A DNA stretch of 64,000 nucleotides, taken from the NCBI GenBank assembly GCA_937916515.1, contig CALFSX010000038.1, forward strand, positions 1 through 64,000. Direction: 5' to 3'. The stretch is from an uncultured Planctomycetaceae bacterium. Its GTDB lineage: Bacteria > Planctomycetota > Planctomycetia > Planctomycetales > Planctomycetaceae. The notes beneath the pieces are model-generated. The model did no database searches. It had not been told where the DNA came from and was given only the letters and a program-made list of their open reading frames with translations. Made by a program: the position numbers and the translations under genes. Positions 6,109 to 18,276 of the stretch are shown piece after piece; the first letter of the stretch is position 1, and each line of letters starts with the position of its first letter.

Positions 6109-6630
6109 AGGTCAGCCTCTGGTGTTTTGGGATTCAGTGGATGTTGCGTGCTGGTGACGCGTGTTGCTGAATGTTTTTGAGTGGATGTTTGGCTTTGATT
6201 CGTATGTTGTTTGATGTGGAGGAGCGTTCGTGTAGCCCGGCGGAACGGCGCAAGTTCTGCTAACTTGCGCTAAGCGGGCGCCGTCGGCAAAGTCCCCAGG
6301 TGTTTCTGGCTGAGTTTCACAGCGTCAGGAATTTTCGGGGCGTTGCGACAGTAAGGATTGTCTGGCGATGTTCAGATTTGCCAACCCTTCGTCAAATTAC
6401 GAATAGGAATACTTATCGTGGAGACCGATTGTATGTTCAATGATCAGCACAATCTGTGTTGAGACGTCCTGGTTTGTTGACAATTCCTCAGGAAAACGGC
6501 TAGCATCGCATTCCTTTCTAACTGAATTTTTCGTTTAAATCGTATCAATTCTGGTTTTGCTCATTCTTGAGCACGCTCCAACAATGAGTTTGGAGTGCTT
6601 CTCGACTACTCCTTTGTCTCAGGGCTATTT
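6109..6630. other. Long spacer with a hairpin element
   Basis: About 520 bases between divergent genes. It holds the hairpin element at 6231-6290 and must contain promoters for both neighbours. I see no other gene in it. Confidence 0.6.
6231..6290. repeat. Hairpin-forming intergenic element
   Basis: A perfect 9-bp inverted repeat, GCGCAAGTT (6248-6256) and AACTTGCGC (6262-6270), sits inside GC-rich flanks (GCCCGGCGGAACG on the left, GCGGGCGCCGTCGG on the right) that can extend the stem imperfectly. There is no T-run, so it is not an obvious terminator. It may be one copy of a dispersed palindromic element; no second copy is in this window. Confidence 0.5.
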
Positions 6631-7536
6631 ATGTCATCCAGCGTCCCGGACCGAAAATCCCGGCATGTGACGGGTCGCGTTCCAGTCATGTCTGAGACGA
6701 AGTATGACGTGGCCACAGCCGCTCAGATTGCCGTTTTTCTGGGGCTGCTGGGTTTTGTTGGAATCCTGATTGCGATCTGGCTTAGTAATCTGCTGCCGGA
6801 ACATCAGGCGATTCCGATGATTATGGAATCTGGCGATGGCGGCTGGGAAGATGGTTCGCCAGACGAAACTCTGAACGTGGAATCTCCCGAAGATCCTTCA
6901 GACGATCCGTCTTTGTCGAATGATCAAAGCGAAAGTCAGCTGGAACAAATCACTGAGCAGATGGTGTCGTTGTCTGATACGGCGGCCACTTTAACCAATC
7001 CCAATGACTTTTCTGACGCATCTGGCGGTGGAAACCCCGGCAGTGCCAGCGGTACGGGCGGTCGGCCACTTGGCACCGGCGGAGGCGGAAGCGGCGGAAC
7101 AAAGCGAGAACAACGCTGGTTGATTCAATTTGCTGAACAGGGCAATTTGAAGTCGTACGCAAAGCAGTTGGATTTCTTTAAAATCGAACTGGGTTGTGCG
7201 TTTAAGGATGGGCGAATTTACTATCTCAAAAACATGTCGACCAATCCAACGTTACGCGAACAGCGGATGAGCGCCGATGATAAGCGTTTGTTTATGAGTT
7301 GGACGGGCGGGGATCGAGTTAAAGCGGATATTGAATTGTTGGTGAATGCGGGAGTCAAGGATGCCGCTGCGGGTGTTCCTCTGCATTTTTACGACCCGGC
7401 AACCGAACAAATGCTGGCTCGATTGGAGCTGGATTATGGTGGTCGAACGGCGGATCAAATTCGCAGAACATATTTTCAGGTTAAGAAGTCTGGCAGCGGT
7501 TTTGAGTTTACCGTGACCAGTCAAAAGTTACGCTAA
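6631..7536 (+). CDS. TonB/TolA-like single-pass membrane protein, first gene of ExbB/ExbD-kinase block
   Basis: Architecture is that of a TonB/TolA-type transducer: a short cytoplasmic N-terminus, one membrane helix (AAQIAVFLGLLGFVGILIAIW, near residues 26-46), an acidic stretch, a flexible Gly/Ser-rich linker (GGGNPGSASGTGGRPLGTGG), and a C-terminal globular domain of about 140 residues starting near KREQRWLIQF. No TonB or TolA sequence signature is recognisable, so the likeness is architectural. I prefer the ATG at 6631, which has AGGG eight bases upstream; GTG 6595 and ATG 6688 are alternatives. It is followed by exbB (77 bases away), exbD and a kinase-ExbD fusion on the same strand, which suggests it is the moving periplasmic part of that motor. 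Confidence 0.6.
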   Translation: MSSSVPDRKSRHVTGRVPVMSETKYDVATAAQIAVFLGLLGFVGILIAIWLSNLLPEHQAIPMIMESGDGGWEDGSPDETLNVESPEDPSDDPSLSNDQSESQLEQITEQMVSLSDTAATLTNPNDFSDASGGGNPGSASGTGGRPLGTGGGGSGGTKREQRWLIQFAEQGNLKSYAKQLDFFKIELGCAFKDGRIYYLKNMSTNPTLREQRMSADDKRLFMSWTGGDRVKADIELLVNAGVKDAAAGVPLHFYDPATEQMLARLELDYGGRTADQIRRTYFQVKKSGSGFEFTVTSQKLR

Positions 7537-7613
7537 CTGTTGAATCCATTGTTTGCTGTTACTCACACGATCATTAAGTGTACTTGGGGTCGTATTAGAT
7601 CCGGGAAGTTCTT

Positions 7614-8327
7614 ATGCAATACTTGAGTCTGTCGAAACACTCGTCTGCATTGACGTCATTTGCGCAGGTTGATCTTTCGTCAATCCTGTACTGGTTTGGC
7701 CAGGGGATCTATCTGGCCATGGCCGTTGCTGCGATATACGGCCTGTATTGTATTGTGATGTTGATGCGTCGAGTGAAAGAAAAAAGCTTTCCGGGGCGTG
7801 AGGCGGCTGACGCATTTCTGGATGATGTTGGCGAACTTCTGGAAAAGAACGACTTTGAAGGTGTAACGGAAGCCTGTGATACTCCTGAATTGTGGTCGCG
7901 AGCCGTTCCCCAGCTTGTGCATGTGGCCGTTGAGAACCGCAACAAGCCGATTAAGAAAATTAAGGGGATTGTTGGTGAATTTTTCTCCCGCGAAATCCTG
8001 TCCGACTTTGATGCTCGCACTTCCTGGGTGAACACGATTATCAAATCGGCTCCGATGTTGGGGCTGTTAGGTACAGTGTCAGGGATGATTATGGCGTTCG
8101 GTAAGATCGCCGGCACAGGTGAGTCCGGTGTTAAGCCTTCAGAGCTTGCGGAAGACATTAGTTTCGCTCTGTTTACCACGGCGGCCGGGCTTAGTATTGC
8201 GATTCCACTGGTTGTATTTGTGGCGATGACTCAAACCAGAATCGCACGATTGCAGGATTCTGTGCAGGAAAATATGGGTACGTTTTTCGACGATCTGGAG
8301 GCTGCTCAGGTACGCGGCGACGCCTAA
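7614..8327 (+). CDS. exbB: MotA/TolQ/ExbB proton channel family protein
   Basis: A 237-residue member of the ExbB/TolQ family, which forms the pentameric proton channel of Ton/Tol-type motors in the inner membrane. Three membrane helices are visible: near residues 24-52 (GQGIYLAMAVAAIYGLYCIVMLM), at SAPMLGLLGTVSGMIMAF, and at ALFTTAAGLSIAIPLVVFVAM. The last two carry the family's conserved signatures, and the cytoplasmic domain lies between helices 1 and 2 as expected. Length is normal. It precedes exbD by 43 bases. Whether it serves TonB-dependent uptake or a Tol-like envelope task cannot be told; the symbol only names the family. Confidence 0.9.
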   Translation: MQYLSLSKHSSALTSFAQVDLSSILYWFGQGIYLAMAVAAIYGLYCIVMLMRRVKEKSFPGREAADAFLDDVGELLEKNDFEGVTEACDTPELWSRAVPQLVHVAVENRNKPIKKIKGIVGEFFSREILSDFDARTSWVNTIIKSAPMLGLLGTVSGMIMAFGKIAGTGESGVKPSELAEDISFALFTTAAGLSIAIPLVVFVAMTQTRIARLQDSVQENMGTFFDDLEAAQVRGDA

Positions 8328-8370
8328 GTTTGGTGTCGTGGTTTGAGTTACACCTTTAGGAGATGTTCGA

Positions 8371-8820
8371 GTGTTCGAAGACGGTGGCATTGGCAGCAAG
8401 AAAAAGAAGAAGGACGAAGCCGAACTGGACATTACGCCCATGATCGACGTCGTTTTCCTTTTGCTGATTTTCTTCATGGTCACATCCACCATGCAGGGAA
8501 CGCCCGACAAGGACATTCCGCCAGCAGCTTCCGGAACAAACGCCAACGCCGCCGGTTTTATAAATGTGACCATCTTTGCTCCGGAATCTTCAACTTCGAC
8601 CGGACGTATTACGCTGGACGATGTTCCGGTCACACTGGATCAGGTGAAGGCGGAACTTATTCAACGCACGACGCTGGGCGAAGAAGTGAAGGTGATGATC
8701 TACGCCGAACGCGATGTGCGATCAGGAACTGTCGGAGAGGTTGAACAAATTATTGGCGAGGTGGCCAGCGAAACAGAGAAGGAGATTCTGATGAACTTTG
8801 CCGTCCGAGACCAACGCTGA
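8371..8820 (+). CDS. exbD: ExbD/TolR biopolymer transport protein
   Basis: A 149-residue ExbD/TolR protein: a basic cytoplasmic N-terminus (KKKKKDE), then LDITPMIDVVFLLLIFFMV, where the first Asp of the membrane helix (D26, in MIDV) is the conserved proton-carrying residue, then a periplasmic domain. It starts with GTG, placed behind an AGGAG-type site (TTAGGAGATGTTCGAGTG). It pairs with the ExbB upstream as the stator/dimer of the channel. The gene ends 19 bases before the start of the next, which encodes a kinase carrying a second ExbD domain; the two ExbD copies could form a heterodimer in one channel. Confidence 0.9.
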   Translation: MFEDGGIGSKKKKKDEAELDITPMIDVVFLLLIFFMVTSTMQGTPDKDIPPAASGTNANAAGFINVTIFAPESSTSTGRITLDDVPVTLDQVKAELIQRTTLGEEVKVMIYAERDVRSGTVGEVEQIIGEVASETEKEILMNFAVRDQR

Positions 8821-8839
8821 GATTCAGCAGAAAGTTGTT

Positions 8840-10438
8840 ATGTCTGATCTGGTAGATAAAACGCTTGGCGAGTTTCGCCTGCTGAGACCGCTCGGCAGTG
8901 GCGGCATGGCCGACGTTTACCTTGCTGAACAGGTCACCCTGCAAAGAATGGTCGCAGTTAAGGTGCTGAAACCCGCCTTGATGGCGGCGTCTGGTGAAAC
9001 CATGCTGGCCCGCTTCAAACAGGAAGCCATGATGGCCGCCGGTTTGAATCATCCAAACATCGTGCAGGTTTACACCATTGGTGAGGACGAAGGGTATCAC
9101 TTTATTGCTCAGGAGTTTGTGCAGGGGAAAGACCTTGCCAGCATTCTGAAGACAAAAGGTGTACCTGATATCGGTTCGTGTCTGCACGTCATCCGTCAGG
9201 TGGCATCGGCGCTAAAGGCTTCTGGCCAGGCCGGGATCGTCCATCGCGATATCAAGCCGGAAAACATACTTGTCACCAAAAAGGGCGAAGTGAAGGTTGC
9301 CGACTTTGGATTGGCCCAACTGCATGATAACCCCAATTCGGGCAATATCACTCGCGAAGGAATGACCCTCGGCACGCCACTGTACATGAGCCCCGAACAG
9401 GTCAGCGGTAAGGAGCTTGACCCGCGATCTGACGTTTATTCCTTTGGTGTCACGTGCTACCAGATCCTGTGCGGAAAGACTCCGTTCAAGGGAAACAATG
9501 CGTTGGGGATCGCAGTTCAGCATTTGAACACTGCCCCGCCACCGTTGAAGGAACAAAATCCGAAGCTTCCGGATGTGATTTGCCGCATGGTTCATCGGAT
9601 GATGGCTAAGCGGCGTGCTCTTCGCTATCAATCTGCTGCTGACGTCTATTCAGATCTGAAGGTTCTGGTAGCCGCTTATAAGCAGGGGCGAGATATCGCT
9701 CTGGTTAAGCTGCCCATTCTTGACCAATTGGACGCGGCGGCGAAGAAGGCGAAACAGGAAACTCCAGGAATGCCGGCTGCGAGTTCGCAAAACGCCGGAA
9801 CGTCGTCTGGCAGTTACGACGACGTTGATACATTTCTGATGTCGGACGATGACGACTATTCTGCAGCCACGGTTGCCACTGCGTCTGTCTCAACGCGAGA
9901 TGCGTTTGATGCAGGTTCTGCCAAGAAGAAAGTTTCGGCGACCACAAAGGCAGGCAAAACCAAGTCGATTGTTACTGTGGTTTTGCCGTCGTGGATTGAA
10001 GAGGACGAAGAAGACCAGCCGATGGGGCGACCCGCCCCGGAGTTTGAGGAAATGGACCTCACGCCGATGGTTGACGTAACGTTTCTGTTGTTGATCTTCT
10101 TTATGATTACAGCTGCCTTTAACCTGCAAAAGAAGATTGACGTGCCGCCGGCGAAGACAGACGAAAGCTCTACGACAGTCAATCAGGATCCCGAAGACAG
10201 CGCGACTGTTGAAGCTGAAATTGACGCTCAAAACACCATTTTTATTGATGATGCCAGAGCTGAAAACTTTGCTGAAGTGCTGCAATTTCTGAAGACTGCG
10301 AAAGCGTCGTCTGACAGTGTTGAACTGAAATTGACAATTGATCCCGAATCAACCCACGAAAAGCGAATTCAAGTGGCCGACGCTGCCGCGCAGGCAGGCT
10401 TTACCAAAATCAATTCTCGTATATCTGAGGTTAATTAG
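8840..10438 (+). CDS. Hanks-type Ser/Thr protein kinase fused to a C-terminal ExbD/TolR domain
   Basis: A 532-residue fusion. Residues 10-280 are a complete protein kinase: glycine loop GSGGMADV (19-26), VAVK with K41, helix-C E62, HRDIKPEN (135-142, catalytic D137), DFG (155-157), LYMSPE (181-186). All catalytic residues are present. A linker with poly-Asp and Ser/Thr stretches (about 300-400) leads to an ExbD domain: LTPMVDVTFLLLIFFMITAAF, with the conserved Asp at 412, then a periplasmic domain of about 100 residues. The topology is sensible: kinase in the cytoplasm, ExbD helix in the membrane. I use ATG 8840 rather than TTG 8798, which overlaps exbD and adds non-kinase residues. The fusion suggests that phosphorylation and proton flow are coupled in one complex; this is inference. 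Confidence 0.92.
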   Translation: MSDLVDKTLGEFRLLRPLGSGGMADVYLAEQVTLQRMVAVKVLKPALMAASGETMLARFKQEAMMAAGLNHPNIVQVYTIGEDEGYHFIAQEFVQGKDLASILKTKGVPDIGSCLHVIRQVASALKASGQAGIVHRDIKPENILVTKKGEVKVADFGLAQLHDNPNSGNITREGMTLGTPLYMSPEQVSGKELDPRSDVYSFGVTCYQILCGKTPFKGNNALGIAVQHLNTAPPPLKEQNPKLPDVICRMVHRMMAKRRALRYQSAADVYSDLKVLVAAYKQGRDIALVKLPILDQLDAAAKKAKQETPGMPAASSQNAGTSSGSYDDVDTFLMSDDDDYSAATVATASVSTRDAFDAGSAKKKVSATTKAGKTKSIVTVVLPSWIEEDEEDQPMGRPAPEFEEMDLTPMVDVTFLLLIFFMITAAFNLQKKIDVPPAKTDESSTTVNQDPEDSATVEAEIDAQNTIFIDDARAENFAEVLQFLKTAKASSDSVELKLTIDPESTHEKRIQVADAAAQAGFTKINSRISEVN

Positions 10439-10734
10439 AGCTGTTTTCCGGAATGAAGTTAGCCGCGTTGCTGTGGCGAATTTGAACTTAATTATTAACG
10501 ACAAGTCAGGGCCTGCTGCCTGCATAAGGCAACAAGGAAACGCAAAAGCATGACGACGTCGCGATTGCGTATGGATATGTAACGAAACGTTTCTGCAAAA
10601 ATTTATTTTGGCGAGGCGCTGCCTCAAATTATTCGAGCTATCGCTCAGAAACGCGACTTTGTCGCACTGACAAACTTGAATCAATGTGAACAAGTTGCCT
10701 GCAACAACAAGTCCAATAGAAGCTGGGTGCACAA

Positions 10735-13700
10735 GTGCCGACGGAAGACTACGACGAATACGACGACGTCGATGAAATCGAAGAAATTGACGAGTTCGAT
10801 GACGTTGATGAAGTCGACGACATTGAAGAAGTTGATGACATCGAGGAAGTTGATGAGATCGAAGAGCTTGAGGAAGTCGAAGAAGTCGAGGACCTTGATG
10901 GAAAATCGATCGACAAGGGGCGTCGTCAACTTCAGCGGGGCAAGTTGTCTGAATTCAGTGACAGGCTGACCGGCGGAGCGGCACGTCCAGGTCAACAGGA
11001 AATCAAACGCTCGCCATTTGTAATGGTAATGGCTGGAGCAATTCTGGGCCTTGTGTTGCTGGCGGTTGTGTTCGGCGTGATGATCGTGTCTGCCAGTGAG
11101 CAGCGAAGCTTCGACACGGCGATGGCCAAGCTGAAGGAAAAGTCTTATCCGGAAGCTGAAAAACGCTTCGAAGGATTCCTGCAGGCATATCCCAGCGGCG
11201 AATACTCAGAACAGGCTCGCATCGGTTTGCATAAGTCTCGTGTTCTGAAATACACGGCCGCCGAATCTTATTCTGTAGCCGCAGTTGGCGAAGCCCTGAA
11301 AGAGATCGATGAATTCATCCGCGTTTGTCGCGACTTTGAAGGCTTCAAAGACGAACGCGATGATATCCGCCGCTACGCCCAGCGGATTGCTCGCGTCGGA
11401 GCGATTGTCGCCAGAGATCAGCGACGTCAGGAACCACTCGACAACAGTGTTGCTGCCGCCAAAGTAATGGAACAATACGCGGGCGCAGATGGGATTCCCA
11501 TTTCTGTGTCTGACGACATTAAAAGACTTCAGGAAGAAGCGGAAGCGTCGATTCTGAAGCAAACAATTCTGACAGGTGCGCTCGCTGAAATTAAAGGACA
11601 CCTTGATGCTGGCGACACGTTTGCCGCATTGGAATCGCGACAGGCGTTGATCGACCGGTATCCGGTTTTGAATGCCGACAAAGACGTTGGCAAAATGCTG
11701 GGTGACATTCTGGCACGCGAAAAGGAACTGACCAAAGTTGAAGACGTCGGCGTTGACGCGTCACTGGACGAGAATCAAGTTACTGGCCGCAAAGCCGCTT
11801 CGCTGACTTTGCGAACGCAGGCGACGGTGGATCAGATTTCTCAGGGCCGTCGCGTTTTCGCAGTTGGTGTCGATAGCTGCTATGGATTGGATTCCGAGAC
11901 GGGCGAGCCAATCTGGAAACGCAATGTCGGCGTGAATCCACCGTTTCTGCCGGTCCAGGTAAGTGCCGCCAAACCAGCTTTGCTGGTCTTCCAGAGTCTG
12001 ACAAATGAATTGGTGATGCTTGATCAGGCAGATGGAAGTTTGATGTGGCGGCAAAGTATCCCATCGCGTCCAACGGGTGAGCCGATTGTGTTTCAGCAGC
12101 AGATTTATCTGACAACTGCGGCAGGCGAGCTTTGGAAGATTTCAGTAGACACTGGTAAAGCGATTTCACGCGTTGTGTTTAATCAGCCTGTGGTTGGTCC
12201 GCCCGCCATTTCTCGCGACGAAAAGTTTATGGTGATTACCGGTGATCAGTCGGTTGTTTATACCTTGTCTGTTAATCCACTGGAGTGTGCGGCTGTTTCT
12301 TACATCGAGCATCGTTTGGGCAGTGTTGAGGCTCCGATTTTGACCACTGGCAAAATCATGCTGCTGTGCGATAACGATACCGCCGACAAGGCAAGGCTTC
12401 GTGTGTTGGATGTGAATTCAAGTACAGGTGCAGTCACGGTTCGTTATACGGATTCTGTTGACGGCCAAGTACGCGACCAGTGTCGAATTCGCGGTGCGGA
12501 ATTGTTTGTGCCGTCAACTCCGCAGCGAATTACTGCGTTTAGCGTTAACGATGAGCCGGATGCCAATCCTCCGATTTCACGAATTGGTGCCAACCAACTG
12601 GAAAATGCCACGAACGCGCCCGTTCACCTGTTGGCAGGTCCTGGCGGTCAGCTATGGATGGCAAGTCAGGCACTTCGAAAGTTTCGACTGCGAACCAATG
12701 CTCTGGAACTTTCTGCCGAGTCCGCAGCTGAAGGTCTTCATCTAAGACCAATTCAAATGATGGATCAGAACGTGTTTGTGACAACCAACGAAGCGTATTC
12801 CGCGTCTGTGTTTTTCACAAAGGTCGATCCCCAAAACATGCAGGGACTGTGGCGAACAGTTGTCGGAACAAACGTTGTTGCGGCGGCTCCGTCGGACAAT
12901 AATACTTCAATGATCGTTGTTGGTGACTTCGGTGAAGTTTTTCGAGTTCCTGTTGAGACGATTAAGGCCGGTGAATTTGTTCTGGAACGAATCAGTCGCT
13001 ACGACATCCCCGATAAACTTGAACAGCGAGTTGGCGGGCTGAATTTGAAAGATGGTCGAGTAGCCGCGTTTTGTGGCGGCGATGAGCCGTCGCTTTGGAC
13101 TTTTACGTCATCTGGTCAGCTGGAACAAAAGTGGCCTCGGTTGCCGGGACCTCCATCGTTGCAGCCTGTGGCATTGGACGTCGGTGTTGTGTTGGCAGTT
13201 CCGGGCCGTCTGCACATGACAGCCAATCGTCGCGGAGTTGTTCAGGACTATCGTGCCGCAGAAGCTGTGGGGCAGCAGGCAGCGTGGAAGAGCATAGTCG
13301 CACTTACCGGAAATCAGGTGCTGGCAATCGATTCGCAGAATACCGCAATTCGAATTGAATACAGAGAAAGTCCCAATCCGCACTTGTTTGAAGTCAGCAA
13401 GACTCCTTTACAACAGGCTGTGGAAGTCACGCCAGTCGTTTCAGGAGATCTGCTGTTTGTCGCCACGGCAGAAGGAAATCTTCAGGCTCTGGCCACGTCA
13501 ACTCTTGAACAACTGGGTGAGGTTAAATTGGGAGGCGTTGCCAACGAAGCACCGCTTGCAGCCGGAGACAGGGTCTTCGTTCAGGTGGCCCGCAAAGACC
13601 TGAAGGTGTTTGACAGGTCTCCCACTTTGAATCAAACCGGAAGTCTAAATCTGAACGGCAGCTTTCTTGTGGGGGCTCCCATTCCGGTTAACGGTGGTGG

Positions 13701-13878
13701 TTTTGTGGCGTGTTTTTCCGATGGTCGCGTCGTGTTGCTCGATCAGGATGGCAACGAAACAGGAAAGCAGATTTTGCTTGGCCAGGCGGCTCAAAAGGGG
13801 CCATTCATCATCGGTAGCAGTCTGATTGTAATCGGTGTTGATGGAAGCCTTTACAGCATTGAGGACATTCTTGATTAG
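10735..13878 (+). CDS. Membrane-anchored PQQ-like beta-propeller protein with acidic repeat tail
   Basis: A 1047-residue protein in four parts. Residues 4-55 are almost only Asp/Glu with a Val/Ile/Leu about every third place (DDVDEIEEIDEFDDVDEV and so on), an acidic tripeptide repeat. Residues 94-119 are one membrane helix (FVMVMAGAILGLVLLAVVFG). Residues 120-350 are helical and TPR-like (AEKRFEGFLQAYPSGEY). From about 370 to the end are PQQ/WD-type blades (YGLDSETGEPIWKRNV, LVMLDQADGSLMWRQ, YSIEDILD). The acidic tail would be cytoplasmic, the propeller periplasmic. The start is GTG, the first start codon after an in-frame stop at 10717, with only a weak ribosome site. It follows the kinase-ExbD gene by 296 bases on the same strand. 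Confidence 0.8.
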   Translation: MPTEDYDEYDDVDEIEEIDEFDDVDEVDDIEEVDDIEEVDEIEELEEVEEVEDLDGKSIDKGRRQLQRGKLSEFSDRLTGGAARPGQQEIKRSPFVMVMAGAILGLVLLAVVFGVMIVSASEQRSFDTAMAKLKEKSYPEAEKRFEGFLQAYPSGEYSEQARIGLHKSRVLKYTAAESYSVAAVGEALKEIDEFIRVCRDFEGFKDERDDIRRYAQRIARVGAIVARDQRRQEPLDNSVAAAKVMEQYAGADGIPISVSDDIKRLQEEAEASILKQTILTGALAEIKGHLDAGDTFAALESRQALIDRYPVLNADKDVGKMLGDILAREKELTKVEDVGVDASLDENQVTGRKAASLTLRTQATVDQISQGRRVFAVGVDSCYGLDSETGEPIWKRNVGVNPPFLPVQVSAAKPALLVFQSLTNELVMLDQADGSLMWRQSIPSRPTGEPIVFQQQIYLTTAAGELWKISVDTGKAISRVVFNQPVVGPPAISRDEKFMVITGDQSVVYTLSVNPLECAAVSYIEHRLGSVEAPILTTGKIMLLCDNDTADKARLRVLDVNSSTGAVTVRYTDSVDGQVRDQCRIRGAELFVPSTPQRITAFSVNDEPDANPPISRIGANQLENATNAPVHLLAGPGGQLWMASQALRKFRLRTNALELSAESAAEGLHLRPIQMMDQNVFVTTNEAYSASVFFTKVDPQNMQGLWRTVVGTNVVAAAPSDNNTSMIVVGDFGEVFRVPVETIKAGEFVLERISRYDIPDKLEQRVGGLNLKDGRVAAFCGGDEPSLWTFTSSGQLEQKWPRLPGPPSLQPVALDVGVVLAVPGRLHMTANRRGVVQDYRAAEAVGQQAAWKSIVALTGNQVLAIDSQNTAIRIEYRESPNPHLFEVSKTPLQQAVEVTPVVSGDLLFVATAEGNLQALATSTLEQLGEVKLGGVANEAPLAAGDRVFVQVARKDLKVFDRSPTLNQTGSLNLNGSFLVGAPIPVNGGGFVACFSDGRVVLLDQDGNETGKQILLGQAAQKGPFIIGSSLIVIGVDGSLYSIEDILD

Positions 13879-13999
13879 CGTTGTTCCACGGAAGCTGCGG
13901 TTTGCTCGCAGCTTAATCCGGCGGCTGACTGCTTGTCGGGTGTTGTTCATTCCGAAAGCTGTTTGCGTTACTCAACTGAAAATAGATAAGACATGTCGC

Positions 14000-16537
14000 A
14001 TGACTTGTGAATTCAAAAGTTTGATTTCCAATTCTCCGCTGGCGAATGCCGTGCGGGTTGTCGTTGCGCTGATCGTTTGCGTCTGTCCAGCGGCGCAGGA
14101 GGCAAAAGCTCAGGACGAGCTGCCCACGTTGGAGCAGATGTGGGAGACGCTGCCGAGTGCTGACGAATTGGTAACGATCGACCCCTACGATTGGATCGTG
14201 CTGAAAACTGGTGGTGTTCTGAAAGTTGAACCCGTTTCGCCGCGACCGGATACTTTAAAGAAGATGGCCGAAGAAAAAGCTCGGCTTGAATCAACAAAAG
14301 GCGCCAATAAGCAGGAACGCGACGCAATTCGAGATCGACTGGATCGCCTGAAGAAGGTTGAGATTGTGCTGCCGGACAATCAGGCCGAAGACTACCTGCT
14401 TCCCCTTGGCCAGATTGAACAAATTATTGCGTTTGAAGACCTTATGCTTCGACGCGTGGATATGTTGTTGGAAGCGAAGGAAATTCGGAAGGCGTATGAG
14501 TTGCTGATTGAAGTCGATCGACGTGCTCCAGGATGGTCTGAAACAGTGCCGCGTTTTGACGCGCTGCTGCTGCGTGAAGCAAGTTTGAAACTGGGATCGA
14601 ACGAACCGTATGCTGCCCTGGCGTTGATGGACGAGCTGGCTGATCGAAATATCGCCAATGCAGAGTTGCCTGGTTTGATGAGCGGTACGCTGGACGGGTT
14701 GATTAAAGCTGCCGTTCAGGAAGGTGACTTCCCCAAGGCTCGATATCTTAACAACCGGCTGATGAAGTATTTTCCAAAGCATCCTGTTGCGACCGGCTGG
14801 ATTGCCAAACTACAGCGAATGATGAGTGACAAACTTGCCGAAGCGAGGCAGCTTTCGCAGAAAGGTGAGCATTCTCAGGCAGCCTTGGTTGCTCAGGAGG
14901 CGGACTATATTTGGAGGACTGATGGAAATCAGAGGTCCGAATATTCTCGATACGTTTCTCGTTACCAACGACTGCGCGTGCCTGTTCGACGATTTCTGGA
15001 TGAGGAAATTGTATCGCCGGTTGAGCTTTCTGCGGCTGGCCGACATCGCGAACTCACGACTGTGCAGTTGTTTGAACCCACATCTGCTGATGATCTTACC
15101 TATTATCAATCCAGCTTTTTTGAACAATGGGATCCGCAGGATCTGGGGCGTGAAGTTGTATTTTCACTTCGCCAGACTCGCCCATATTGGCAGTCTCAAC
15201 CAGTGCTCACTGCAAATCAGGTTGCCGACTCTTTGGCGCTGCAGCTTGATCCACAGAGCACAACTTTCAACCCGCGACTGGCGTCGTTTATTCGTGAATT
15301 TTCCGTGCGTTCGCCAACCGAACTGCAAATCAGCTTTACTCGAGTTCCTTTGAATCTGGAAGCGTTGTTTCGCTTTCCTGTGACTGCCGTCAGTTCTGAT
15401 GATGCGTCAAGCCTGGAAATTCTGTCGAAGCGATTTGAGCTTGTTGAAAAAAGTGCGGATCGTCGAACCTATCGACGCACCATTCCGGAGCCTGATGGAT
15501 TGATTCCATCGCAGTACCATGTTGCTGAAATTGAAGAACTGAGATTTGCTGATCGTGAGTCTGAGATTCGTGCTTTTCAACGCAAACAGATCGATGTTTT
15601 GCCGTATCTTTTCCCTTGGGAAGTTGACATTTTTAAGGGCGCTGATCGAGCATTCGTTCAGCAATATGCCATACCAACTTCGCACGTTATCGTGTTTAAC
15701 CCAATGTCTCCTGCCGTGTCGAGCGCTCAATTACGACGCGGATTATCTTTTGGCGTTGATCGCGAAAACCTGCTGAAGAAGGTGATCCTGCGGGACCCTG
15801 CCATGAAGCATGGACGTGTGACGTCCGCTCCGTGGAATTCCGAAAGCTACGCGAACAGCCCGCTGGTGGACGCTCCGGAGTATGATCATTATCTGTCGTA
15901 CCTGTTGCGGCTTGCCGCTTTGGAGCAGCTTAGGATTCCAGACAAACAAAAGTTTGTAGCGGATGCCAAAGCCAAAACGCTTGAAGCAAAACAAGAGTGG
16001 GATGAAGAAAACTATCGCAAAGACCACGTGGCGGAAATTAAGGCGGCTGCAGCTCATATCGAACTGCCGGTACTGCGAATGGTGTGCGACCCCGATGAAG
16101 TTGCCATGCTGGCAGCAGAGCAAATGGTTAAGCGTTGGGAAGCGCTGGGATACAAAATCAAATTGATTCCGGGCGACACCAAGGGGCCTCAGTTTGGCGA
16201 TGACGATTGGGACCTGATGTATCGACGATCGACCATGCAGGAGCCCTTGTTCGATCTTTGGGAACTGCTGCTGACCGATGGTTCCTTCGATGTCAATCGA
16301 CTGTCATCGTATCCGGACTGGATGAGGCAGGAGTTAATCAATCTCGACTACGCAACCAGTTTTCTTGATGCTCAGGAACGACTGTTTTTGATTCACAGAC
16401 ACATGACGGCTCAGGGGTTTCTGGTTCCGCTGTGGGAGATCGATGAATTTATCGCGTTGCAAAAGAACATCGCTGGCTTTGAGCCGCGTCCTGTTACTAC
16501 CTATCACGGCGTAGAACGCTGGCTGGTGAAGCCATGA
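14000..16537 (+). CDS. Family 5 extracellular solute-binding (OppA/DppA-like) protein with helical N-terminal domain
   Basis: An 845-residue exported protein. The ATG at 14000 gives a good signal peptide (NAVRVVVALIVCVCPAAQEAKAQ); longer in-frame starts only add non-signal residues. The first 300 residues or so are helical and TPR-like (KAYELLIEVDRRAPGWSE, DFPKARYLNNRLMKYFP). The rest resembles the SBP_bac_5 fold of peptide-binding ABC proteins: REVVFSLRQTRPYW, NQVADSLALQL, QLRRGLSFGVDRENLLKKVIL, and KRWEALGYKIKLIPGD. No ABC permease or ATPase gene is in the window, and the neighbours are propeller and Exb-type genes, so it is probably a periplasmic peptide-sensing or scaffold part of that complex instead of an importer. 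It overlaps the next gene by four bases (ATGA). Confidence 0.75.
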   Translation: MTCEFKSLISNSPLANAVRVVVALIVCVCPAAQEAKAQDELPTLEQMWETLPSADELVTIDPYDWIVLKTGGVLKVEPVSPRPDTLKKMAEEKARLESTKGANKQERDAIRDRLDRLKKVEIVLPDNQAEDYLLPLGQIEQIIAFEDLMLRRVDMLLEAKEIRKAYELLIEVDRRAPGWSETVPRFDALLLREASLKLGSNEPYAALALMDELADRNIANAELPGLMSGTLDGLIKAAVQEGDFPKARYLNNRLMKYFPKHPVATGWIAKLQRMMSDKLAEARQLSQKGEHSQAALVAQEADYIWRTDGNQRSEYSRYVSRYQRLRVPVRRFLDEEIVSPVELSAAGRHRELTTVQLFEPTSADDLTYYQSSFFEQWDPQDLGREVVFSLRQTRPYWQSQPVLTANQVADSLALQLDPQSTTFNPRLASFIREFSVRSPTELQISFTRVPLNLEALFRFPVTAVSSDDASSLEILSKRFELVEKSADRRTYRRTIPEPDGLIPSQYHVAEIEELRFADRESEIRAFQRKQIDVLPYLFPWEVDIFKGADRAFVQQYAIPTSHVIVFNPMSPAVSSAQLRRGLSFGVDRENLLKKVILRDPAMKHGRVTSAPWNSESYANSPLVDAPEYDHYLSYLLRLAALEQLRIPDKQKFVADAKAKTLEAKQEWDEENYRKDHVAEIKAAAAHIELPVLRMVCDPDEVAMLAAEQMVKRWEALGYKIKLIPGDTKGPQFGDDDWDLMYRRSTMQEPLFDLWELLLTDGSFDVNRLSSYPDWMRQELINLDYATSFLDAQERLFLIHRHMTAQGFLVPLWEIDEFIALQKNIAGFEPRPVTTYHGVERWLVKP

Positions 16538-18276
16538 AACGTAACTTGATATCGAATTCAGAAGCGATGCGAAAAACAATTGTCGTCTTCTGCCTGGTTT
16601 GCGGAGTCTGTTGTTCTGCTGGTTCTGTCGTAGGACAGGATACACCCGAAGCATCCCCTGCCGAAGTTTCTGCGCCACCTGTTGCGGAAGCGGCGTCTGA
16701 ATCAGCAGTAACTGCTCAGTCCGCAGCTGTTCCAGCGGCCAAACCAGTTCCGGTTGTTGTGGAAGTTGAGGTTCCGTTTTCTTTGCAGCCATACATTGTC
16801 GATGTTCAGGTTTCGTTTGAAAGCGGTTGTCTGAACGATGCGTCGCAGCGAAATCTGTTGGTGGAAGACATTCAGAAAGCGGTTGAGCGTATGTTCGGAC
16901 GCATGTGGCAACCGCAGATCGCCGAAAGTGATTGGTTTGTTTCGGGTGATTCCGGTGGATTGGGACGAATTCAGCTGTCGGATATGCTTGAACGTTACCC
17001 AGAAGATCGCGTTCATAAGGCATTCATTGTTACCATTGAACAACAGGGGTCTGGTTACCAGGTTTCCTGCCGTGAGTACGATTCGCGTGTTCAGGAACTG
17101 ACCCCCGTCTATTCTGCCAGCTTACTGGACGTTCGCGGTATTGGTTCGACCGCGGTGGAGTTGATTCGAGATGCGTTTCGTCCCTGTGTTCTGTTTGTCC
17201 GCAATTTTACAACAGAAGACGGCCAGGCTTTGATGGAACTGCATGTGCAGGCTGGCGAAATTTTGCCTCCGGATCCTTCAGCGGAACAGGTTGTTGAGGG
17301 CGATGTGTTGCGTCCGTTCATCCGGCAGATGGACCGCCGAAATCCGAAGAAGCTAAGCCAATTGCGGGCGATGACATTGTCGTACGTTAAAGTGTTGCGG
17401 ATGGGACCAACCGAGGTTCCTTCTGAGCCGGGTAATCAAAGCGAAGATGAATTTCCAGCATTCACTGTTTTGAATGACGACGGCACAGTCGCAGAAGCTG
17501 ACGTTCCAATTGACAGCGAATTAGGCCGCAGCATCGTAACTGGAATTTATTTGACCCACATGTCGTACTCGCCGTTTGGAGGCAAAGGGCGTCGTATGCA
17601 GCACTTGGCGCTTCGGCAACGACCGACTGCCAGTGAAAGTCGCGTGAAGCTGGTGCTACAAAGCCGCCCGGATAAACCGTTGATTTCACACCGCATGGCT
17701 CTGGCCTATCAGTTAGGGTACCGCGACGAAGAAGATGGGCCGCAAACTCAGCTTGTCAGCGATCGTAATGGAGAGGTCACAATTAAAGTGAAAGAGGGGC
17801 ACCCAACATTCTGGATCCGCGTTTACAGTGGAGCTTCTTTGTTGGCGCGTGTTCCCTACGCTGCCGGGCTGATTCCGTACGACGTCGTTGAGCTGCCGGA
17901 CGATTCGATTCGACTGGGAGTTGAAGGCGAAATTCAACTGTTGTCCGATAAGTTAATTGACTCCATCGCGTTGCGGGGAGTTCTTCTGGCCAGAGCCAGA
18001 AAAGCGGCCGAAGCTGGATCTACAGATGAAGTGGATCAGTTGTTGGAGAAATATGACGGGGTTCCTGCTAAAGCGTATTTTCTGGAGAAGGTTAGTAACA
18101 TCCGGAATCTTGCGGAAAAACAGGCGAAAGAACGGCGGCAAAGTGCTTCACGAATTACAAAGTTATGCACGGGGCTTTCCGATACAGTAAGCACGTTCTT
18201 TAGCGACGAAAAACGTGCTGAACGTACAGAGGAAATACTCAAAATTCGTCAATCGGCAGAGCAAAACGCCAAGTGA
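16534..18276 (+). CDS. Exported protein of unknown function, last gene of the Exb/kinase block
   Basis: A 580-residue protein with a signal peptide (KTIVVFCLVCGVCCSAGSVVG, cleavage near VGQDT), an Ala/Pro/Val-rich segment (about residues 35-70), then a large domain I do not recognise. It opens with PFSLQPYIVDVQVSFESG and includes beta-rich segments such as VLFVRNFTTEDGQALMELHVQ and GEVTIKVKEGHPTFWIRVYSG, with a charged helical C-terminus (AKERRQSASRITKL). Its start overlaps the solute-binding gene by four bases, so the two are translationally coupled and likely work together in the periplasm. It ends 37 bases before proB, which may be co-transcribed. Confidence 0.75.
   Translation: MKRNLISNSEAMRKTIVVFCLVCGVCCSAGSVVGQDTPEASPAEVSAPPVAEAASESAVTAQSAAVPAAKPVPVVVEVEVPFSLQPYIVDVQVSFESGCLNDASQRNLLVEDIQKAVERMFGRMWQPQIAESDWFVSGDSGGLGRIQLSDMLERYPEDRVHKAFIVTIEQQGSGYQVSCREYDSRVQELTPVYSASLLDVRGIGSTAVELIRDAFRPCVLFVRNFTTEDGQALMELHVQAGEILPPDPSAEQVVEGDVLRPFIRQMDRRNPKKLSQLRAMTLSYVKVLRMGPTEVPSEPGNQSEDEFPAFTVLNDDGTVAEADVPIDSELGRSIVTGIYLTHMSYSPFGGKGRRMQHLALRQRPTASESRVKLVLQSRPDKPLISHRMALAYQLGYRDEEDGPQTQLVSDRNGEVTIKVKEGHPTFWIRVYSGASLLARVPYAAGLIPYDVVELPDDSIRLGVEGEIQLLSDKLIDSIALRGVLLARARKAAEAGSTDEVDQLLEKYDGVPAKAYFLEKVSNIRNLAEKQAKERRQSASRITKLCTGLSDTVSTFFSDEKRAERTEEILKIRQSAEQNAK

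Follow-up and report, generated by a model that had tools for sequence, protein, structure and literature searches.

The window analysed here, a stretch of 64,000 nucleotides from an uncultured Planctomycetaceae bacterium, encodes a Hanks-type Ser/Thr kinase and a second ExbD motor subunit (ExbD2) as one protein, which with modest confidence we take to be a receptor-type kinase that uses the ExbD subunit as its membrane helix and extracytoplasmic part. The gene (8840-10438, + strand) is a single uninterrupted frame of 532 amino acids that starts with ATG at 8840 and stops at 10436-10438.

Results

Domain structure of the kinase-ExbD2 protein

Two Pfam domains were found in the 532-residue protein, both far above cut-off, Pkinase (PF00069, 167 bits) at residues 13-259 (8876-9616, + strand) and ExbD (PF02472, 74 bits) at residues 403-525; besides cross-matches between kinase folds these were the only Pfam matches, and PASTA repeats were absent. 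The kinase part carries the G-loop LGSGGMADV, K41, E62, H135-R136-D137, K139, N142, D155-F156-G157 and SPE at residues 184-186. The full Hanks-type set of catalytic Lys, Glu, HRD, Asn and DFG is present, as an earlier note on this DNA had stated, and the nearest solved structures are those of M. tuberculosis PknA and PknB. From the known biology of this family, the domain would be expected to catalyse phosphotransfer.

In the AlphaFold2 model the kinase is mostly confident, residues 309-408 are disordered (pLDDT about 30-45), residues 408-431 form the transmembrane helix (10061-10132, + strand) and residues 457-528, which overlap the PF02472 match, form a confident periplasmic domain (10208-10423, + strand; pLDDT about 85-91). 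The counterpart of Asp412 in the helix (10073-10075) is residue 25 in the solved ExbD structures of E. coli and Serratia when the sequences are aligned, in agreement with the earlier assignment, and the C-terminal part combines PF02472 with a transmembrane Asp equivalent to ExbD Asp25, as is typical of ExbD/TolR. ExbD proteins have a cytoplasmic N-terminus and a periplasmic ExbD domain. Since the kinase is N-terminal to the helix, it is expected on the cytoplasmic side, where it had been placed before; both this topology and membership of an ExbB-ExbD1-ExbD2 motor are what known family biology would predict. The two domains had also been described as fused directly. They do share a single frame, but they are separated by a disordered, fast-evolving cytoplasmic linker of about 110 residues (residues 291-402; 9710-10045, + strand), so that the fusion is not direct; given a tether this long and disordered, it is neither obvious nor implied that the helix gates the kinase mechanically.

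Conservation of the fusion in related genomes

The closest named loci to that of the window were from Fuerstiella and Planctomycetaceae MAGs. In a search of 58 genomes, that of the window and those of relatives, a full-length single-frame match came from each of the eight members of the genus, the source genome of the window being one of these, and from a single genome of a second genus. The fused proteins of these relatives were 65-72% identical to the window protein. When 150 genomes of the family were searched with the ExbD part, kinase-bearing frames of 501-576 amino acids were found in 23 genomes from five genera (g1, g6, g48, g65 and g71), one of them a closed genome of 8.9 Mb. Given that the same single frame recurs in 23 genomes and five genera, the fusion is more than chance. 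The catalytic residues of the kinase were invariant in an alignment of these 23 genomes. Classification of the g48 kinases as pseudokinases was rejected, as the motif pattern used was too strict and every catalytic residue was seen in the alignment.

Four fused cases beyond the 23 were imperfect. The fusions of G139 and G164 are cut off by contig ends, that of G021, from a sixth genus, is interrupted by a frame break close to the kinase G-loop, and in the G146 MAG a frame break within the linker leaves kinase and ExbD2 in different frames (L143:3490-5054). The latter two breaks could be read as signs that an assembly error or a strain-specific frameshift had joined two genes, but with 23 single frames at hand, one from a closed genome, and with an ExbD2 frame in G146 that has no ATG, GTG or TTG ahead of the helix while the fusion is intact in its close relatives G160 and G168, an indel in G146 is likelier than two genes and such an artefact is exceedingly improbable in general. 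For the window itself it is ruled out by the single frames in relatives; the outcome that the earlier note had named as damaging, two separate genes in related genomes or a frameshift link found only here, did not materialize.

The dN/dS values, calculated according to Nei-Gojobori for unsaturated pairs only, lay between 0.02 and 0.06 in the kinase and between 0.02 and 0.04 in ExbD, compared with 0.26-0.66 in the linker. Purifying selection is strong on the kinase and on ExbD and much weaker on the linker, the length of which ranged from 84 to 163 amino acids among the fused relatives. The helix core TPMVDVTFLLL was invariant in 36 aligned relatives, fused and unfused, and as the core is the same in both groups the motor role of the fused ExbD2 has probably been kept.

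A seven-gene planctomycete operon

The fusion gene lies in an operon of seven genes (6595-18276, + strand for all genes) that is conserved over planctomycetes and for which the open literature searched yielded no description. The order, which recurs over the fetched planctomycete loci, is single-TM protein, ExbB, ExbD1, kinase-ExbD2, PQQ propeller, SBP_bac_5 protein and secreted protein. The first gene (6595-7536, likely start ATG 6631) adjoins exbB in most loci, and its product has one transmembrane segment (residues 36-66), an acidic and Gly-rich periplasmic linker and a C-terminal domain that is confident in the model; the layout is TonB-like, with no Pfam match (TonB included) and no fold match in the PDB. 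A few genomes with the fusion have a second, tandem copy of this gene at the start of the operon (L066:3761-5623, L068:3332-5440 and L180:2986-4939). The ExbB/TolQ-like channel subunit (7614-8327; PF01618, 78.6 bits) aligns with TolQ/ExbB of known structure and retains the channel Thr positions. It is followed by ExbD1 (8371-8820; PF02472, 72.5 bits), a conserved operon partner and the separate exbD just upstream to which the earlier note had drawn attention. With exbB and exbD1 directly upstream of the fusion and conserved there, the fusion gene shows the linkage to ExbB/TolQ that is characteristic of ExbD/TolR.

Downstream of the fusion are a conserved PQQ/BamB-like beta-propeller protein (10735-13878; PF13360, 62.7 bits), a conserved SBP_bac_5 periplasmic binding protein (13835-16537, likely start ATG 14000; PF00496, 50.5 bits) and a secreted protein with no Pfam match (16483-18276, likely start ATG 16534), whose homologues come after the SBP gene in most operon loci. 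The PQQ protein of the window has an acidic cytoplasmic N-terminus, a transmembrane segment and a TPR-like part. A very acidic DEVDDIEEV-like repeat was observed at this N-terminus (10735-10910).

The Pfam scan revealed no TolA, TolB or Pal among the operon neighbours, the PQQ propeller and SBP_bac_5 proteins being found instead of Tol-Pal components; the operon proteins scanned were also free of vWA domains. The vWA-transducer motor loci of the PVC group combine a TolQ-like gene, two dissimilar TolR/ExbD genes and a putative force transducer (PMC12204202). The window operon resembles these loci in its TolQ-like gene, two different TolR/ExbD genes and candidate transducer, but differs in having PQQ and SBP genes and no vWA domain by Pfam. 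Kinases are not mentioned in the text of PMC12204202.

In sister lineages the PQQ protein may carry an N-terminal FHA-like domain, which was present in 15 of about 58 unfused loci (L070, L074, L079, L105, L129 and others) and in 0 of 24 fused loci. The phosphothreonine-contact Arg was found in 4 of the 15 domains and the usual Ser in none; these two we take to be the canonical phosphothreonine-binding residues of FHA domains. The domain had at first suggested a reader of phosphothreonine located at the complex. Since the binding residues are mostly missing (11/15 without Arg, all without Ser), the FHA-like domain, considered as proof of phospho-control, was downgraded to a hint. PQQ proteins of the Pirellulales type have a different, probably helical stretch at the same place (L121:8580-9479, L128:8519-9418 and L113:5595-6494), with no clear Pfam match for those of L121 and L128.

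The N-terminal position of ExbD2

Of 74 frames counted as unfused, 46 have a CxxC-CxxC zinc ribbon at the N-terminus of ExbD2, compared with 0 of 24 fused frames; the 74 include two fused cases (L143 and L144) that a frame break or contig end interrupts. Given that the ribbon is present in most unfused ExbD2 proteins and in no fused one, the kinase takes the position that the ribbon has in relatives. In L080 and L128, ExbD2 lacks an N-terminal domain altogether. At the cytoplasmic N-terminus of ExbD2, one module has been swapped for another (nothing, zinc ribbon, kinase). The ribbon-bearing ExbD2 proteins (e.g. Gimesia, L079) are similar to the fusion with regard to operon, position, helix and acidic juxtamembrane stretch, and differ from it in having the CxxC-CxxC ribbon where the fusion has the kinase. 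No kinase gene was seen beside exbD2 as a member of the unfused operons.

Genomes of the class (297) and of the phylum (343), which are overlapping samples, were searched with this ExbD, and apart from the known fused genera the best matches included no other kinase-ExbD fusion, the reach of these searches being relatives of this ExbD only. The few other long ExbD frames that were examined (G029, G061, G015, G090 and G091) contained a zinc ribbon or a disordered stretch and no kinase. A frame of 2326 amino acids at L140:3174-10151 ends in an ExbD domain and also contains a zinc ribbon as well as a long acidic stretch of repetitive sequence.

Origin of the fusion

All fused kinases formed one clade in a tree of the kinase domain (98/84), and this clade fell among kinases that have their own transmembrane segment and extracytoplasmic part. 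The nearest unfused relatives, Planctomycetaceae proteins such as G000:C306, were about 50-57% identical to the fused ones in the kinase domain; they have their own membrane segment and extracytoplasmic part and no ExbD, and the fusion therefore has the same layout with another sensor. As judged from these sequences, the fused kinase is derived from a family of kinase-TM-receptor proteins. In a tree built from six operon proteins, with the kinase domain left out, eleven fused operons formed one clade (100/100), which G021 adjoined with weak support (98.8/50). A single fusion event, being the simplest reading of the trees, is most likely, with a separate second origin in G021 as the less probable alternative.

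Discussion

The reading of the fusion as a kinase of the receptor type, with a motor subunit as its membrane and sensor part, is favoured by its PknB-like layout together with the invariant core of the ExbD2 helix. As in PknA, PknB and StkP, a cytoplasmic kinase, about 38% identical in its domain to the PknA/PknB structures, is followed by a linker, one transmembrane segment and an extracytoplasmic part; unlike these kinases, the fusion has no PASTA repeats and its transmembrane and extracytoplasmic parts are those of an ExbD motor subunit. With ExbD/TolR of the ExbBD/TolQR 5:2 motors it shares the helix with the Asp25 equivalent, the periplasmic domain and the exbB neighbour, and it differs from them by a 30-kDa N-terminal kinase and a long linker, the N-terminus of E. 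coli and Serratia ExbD being short. In such an apparatus, ExbD2 and ExbD1 would sit inside an ExbB pentamer, the kinase would be flexibly tethered at the cytoplasmic opening of the motor, and the planctomycete complex would also hold the membrane-anchored periplasmic protein, the PQQ propeller, the solute-binding protein and the secreted protein. The kinase would most likely work in a PknB/StkP-like manner: its proximity or conformation would alter with the periplasmic state of the complex or with its energisation, and its substrates would be members of the complex to which it belongs or envelope proteins in the vicinity.

The fusion suggests a direct coupling of motor and phosphorylation, and both proposals of the earlier note, a proton-channel subunit with phosphorylating activity and a kinase under the control of proton flow, are plausible. 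The more specific version in which one inner subunit of a 5:2 motor carries the kinase and the rotary or conducting state is read out as phosphorylation, which is counted as part of the receptor-type explanation, we consider unlikely. Dimerization is the usual mode of activation for PknB-type kinases. Pairing of ExbD1 with ExbD2 as a heterodimer would leave one kinase per motor, which would fit poorly with this mode.

The long, hypervariable and disordered tether, the unrelated zinc ribbon in the same slot in relatives and the ExbD2 proteins of L080 and L128 would also be explained if ExbD2 merely places an independent kinase at the motor, where it would phosphorylate ordinary substrates nearby and would not be controlled by the motor. 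We regard this as somewhat unlikely, given that five genera have retained the linkage with both halves under strong purifying selection, a pattern that points to a role for the linkage itself, even if selection could also favour an anchor. The control might also run in the opposite direction, the kinase sensing cytoplasmic signals and switching the apparatus by phosphorylating ExbB, ExbD1, the PQQ protein or its own linker. The covalent link, which would give a high local concentration, and the FHA-like domain on the neighbouring PQQ protein in some sister lineages are in line with such a role, but as those domains largely lack the binding residues and no substrate site was identified, we find it quite doubtful. 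The receptor-type kinase with an ExbD subunit as its sensor part is therefore retained as the best explanation.

Receptor kinases and ExbD motors are both known; the genomes searched for their combination were those of Planctomycetota. No description pairing ExbD with a kinase was found in the main texts of the open papers searched, and ExbD is unmentioned in the main text of a 2024 survey of planctomycete kinases. The fusion physically joins Hanks-kinase signalling and proton-driven ExbBD motors, which are normally studied apart, and it exposes a seven-gene planctomycete operon undescribed in the papers searched, together with a module-exchange slot on the second ExbD. As a natural fusion it also tells to which motor subunit the kinase belongs, and a report of motor state to the cytoplasm therefore becomes testable with point mutants of D137 and D412 in one protein.
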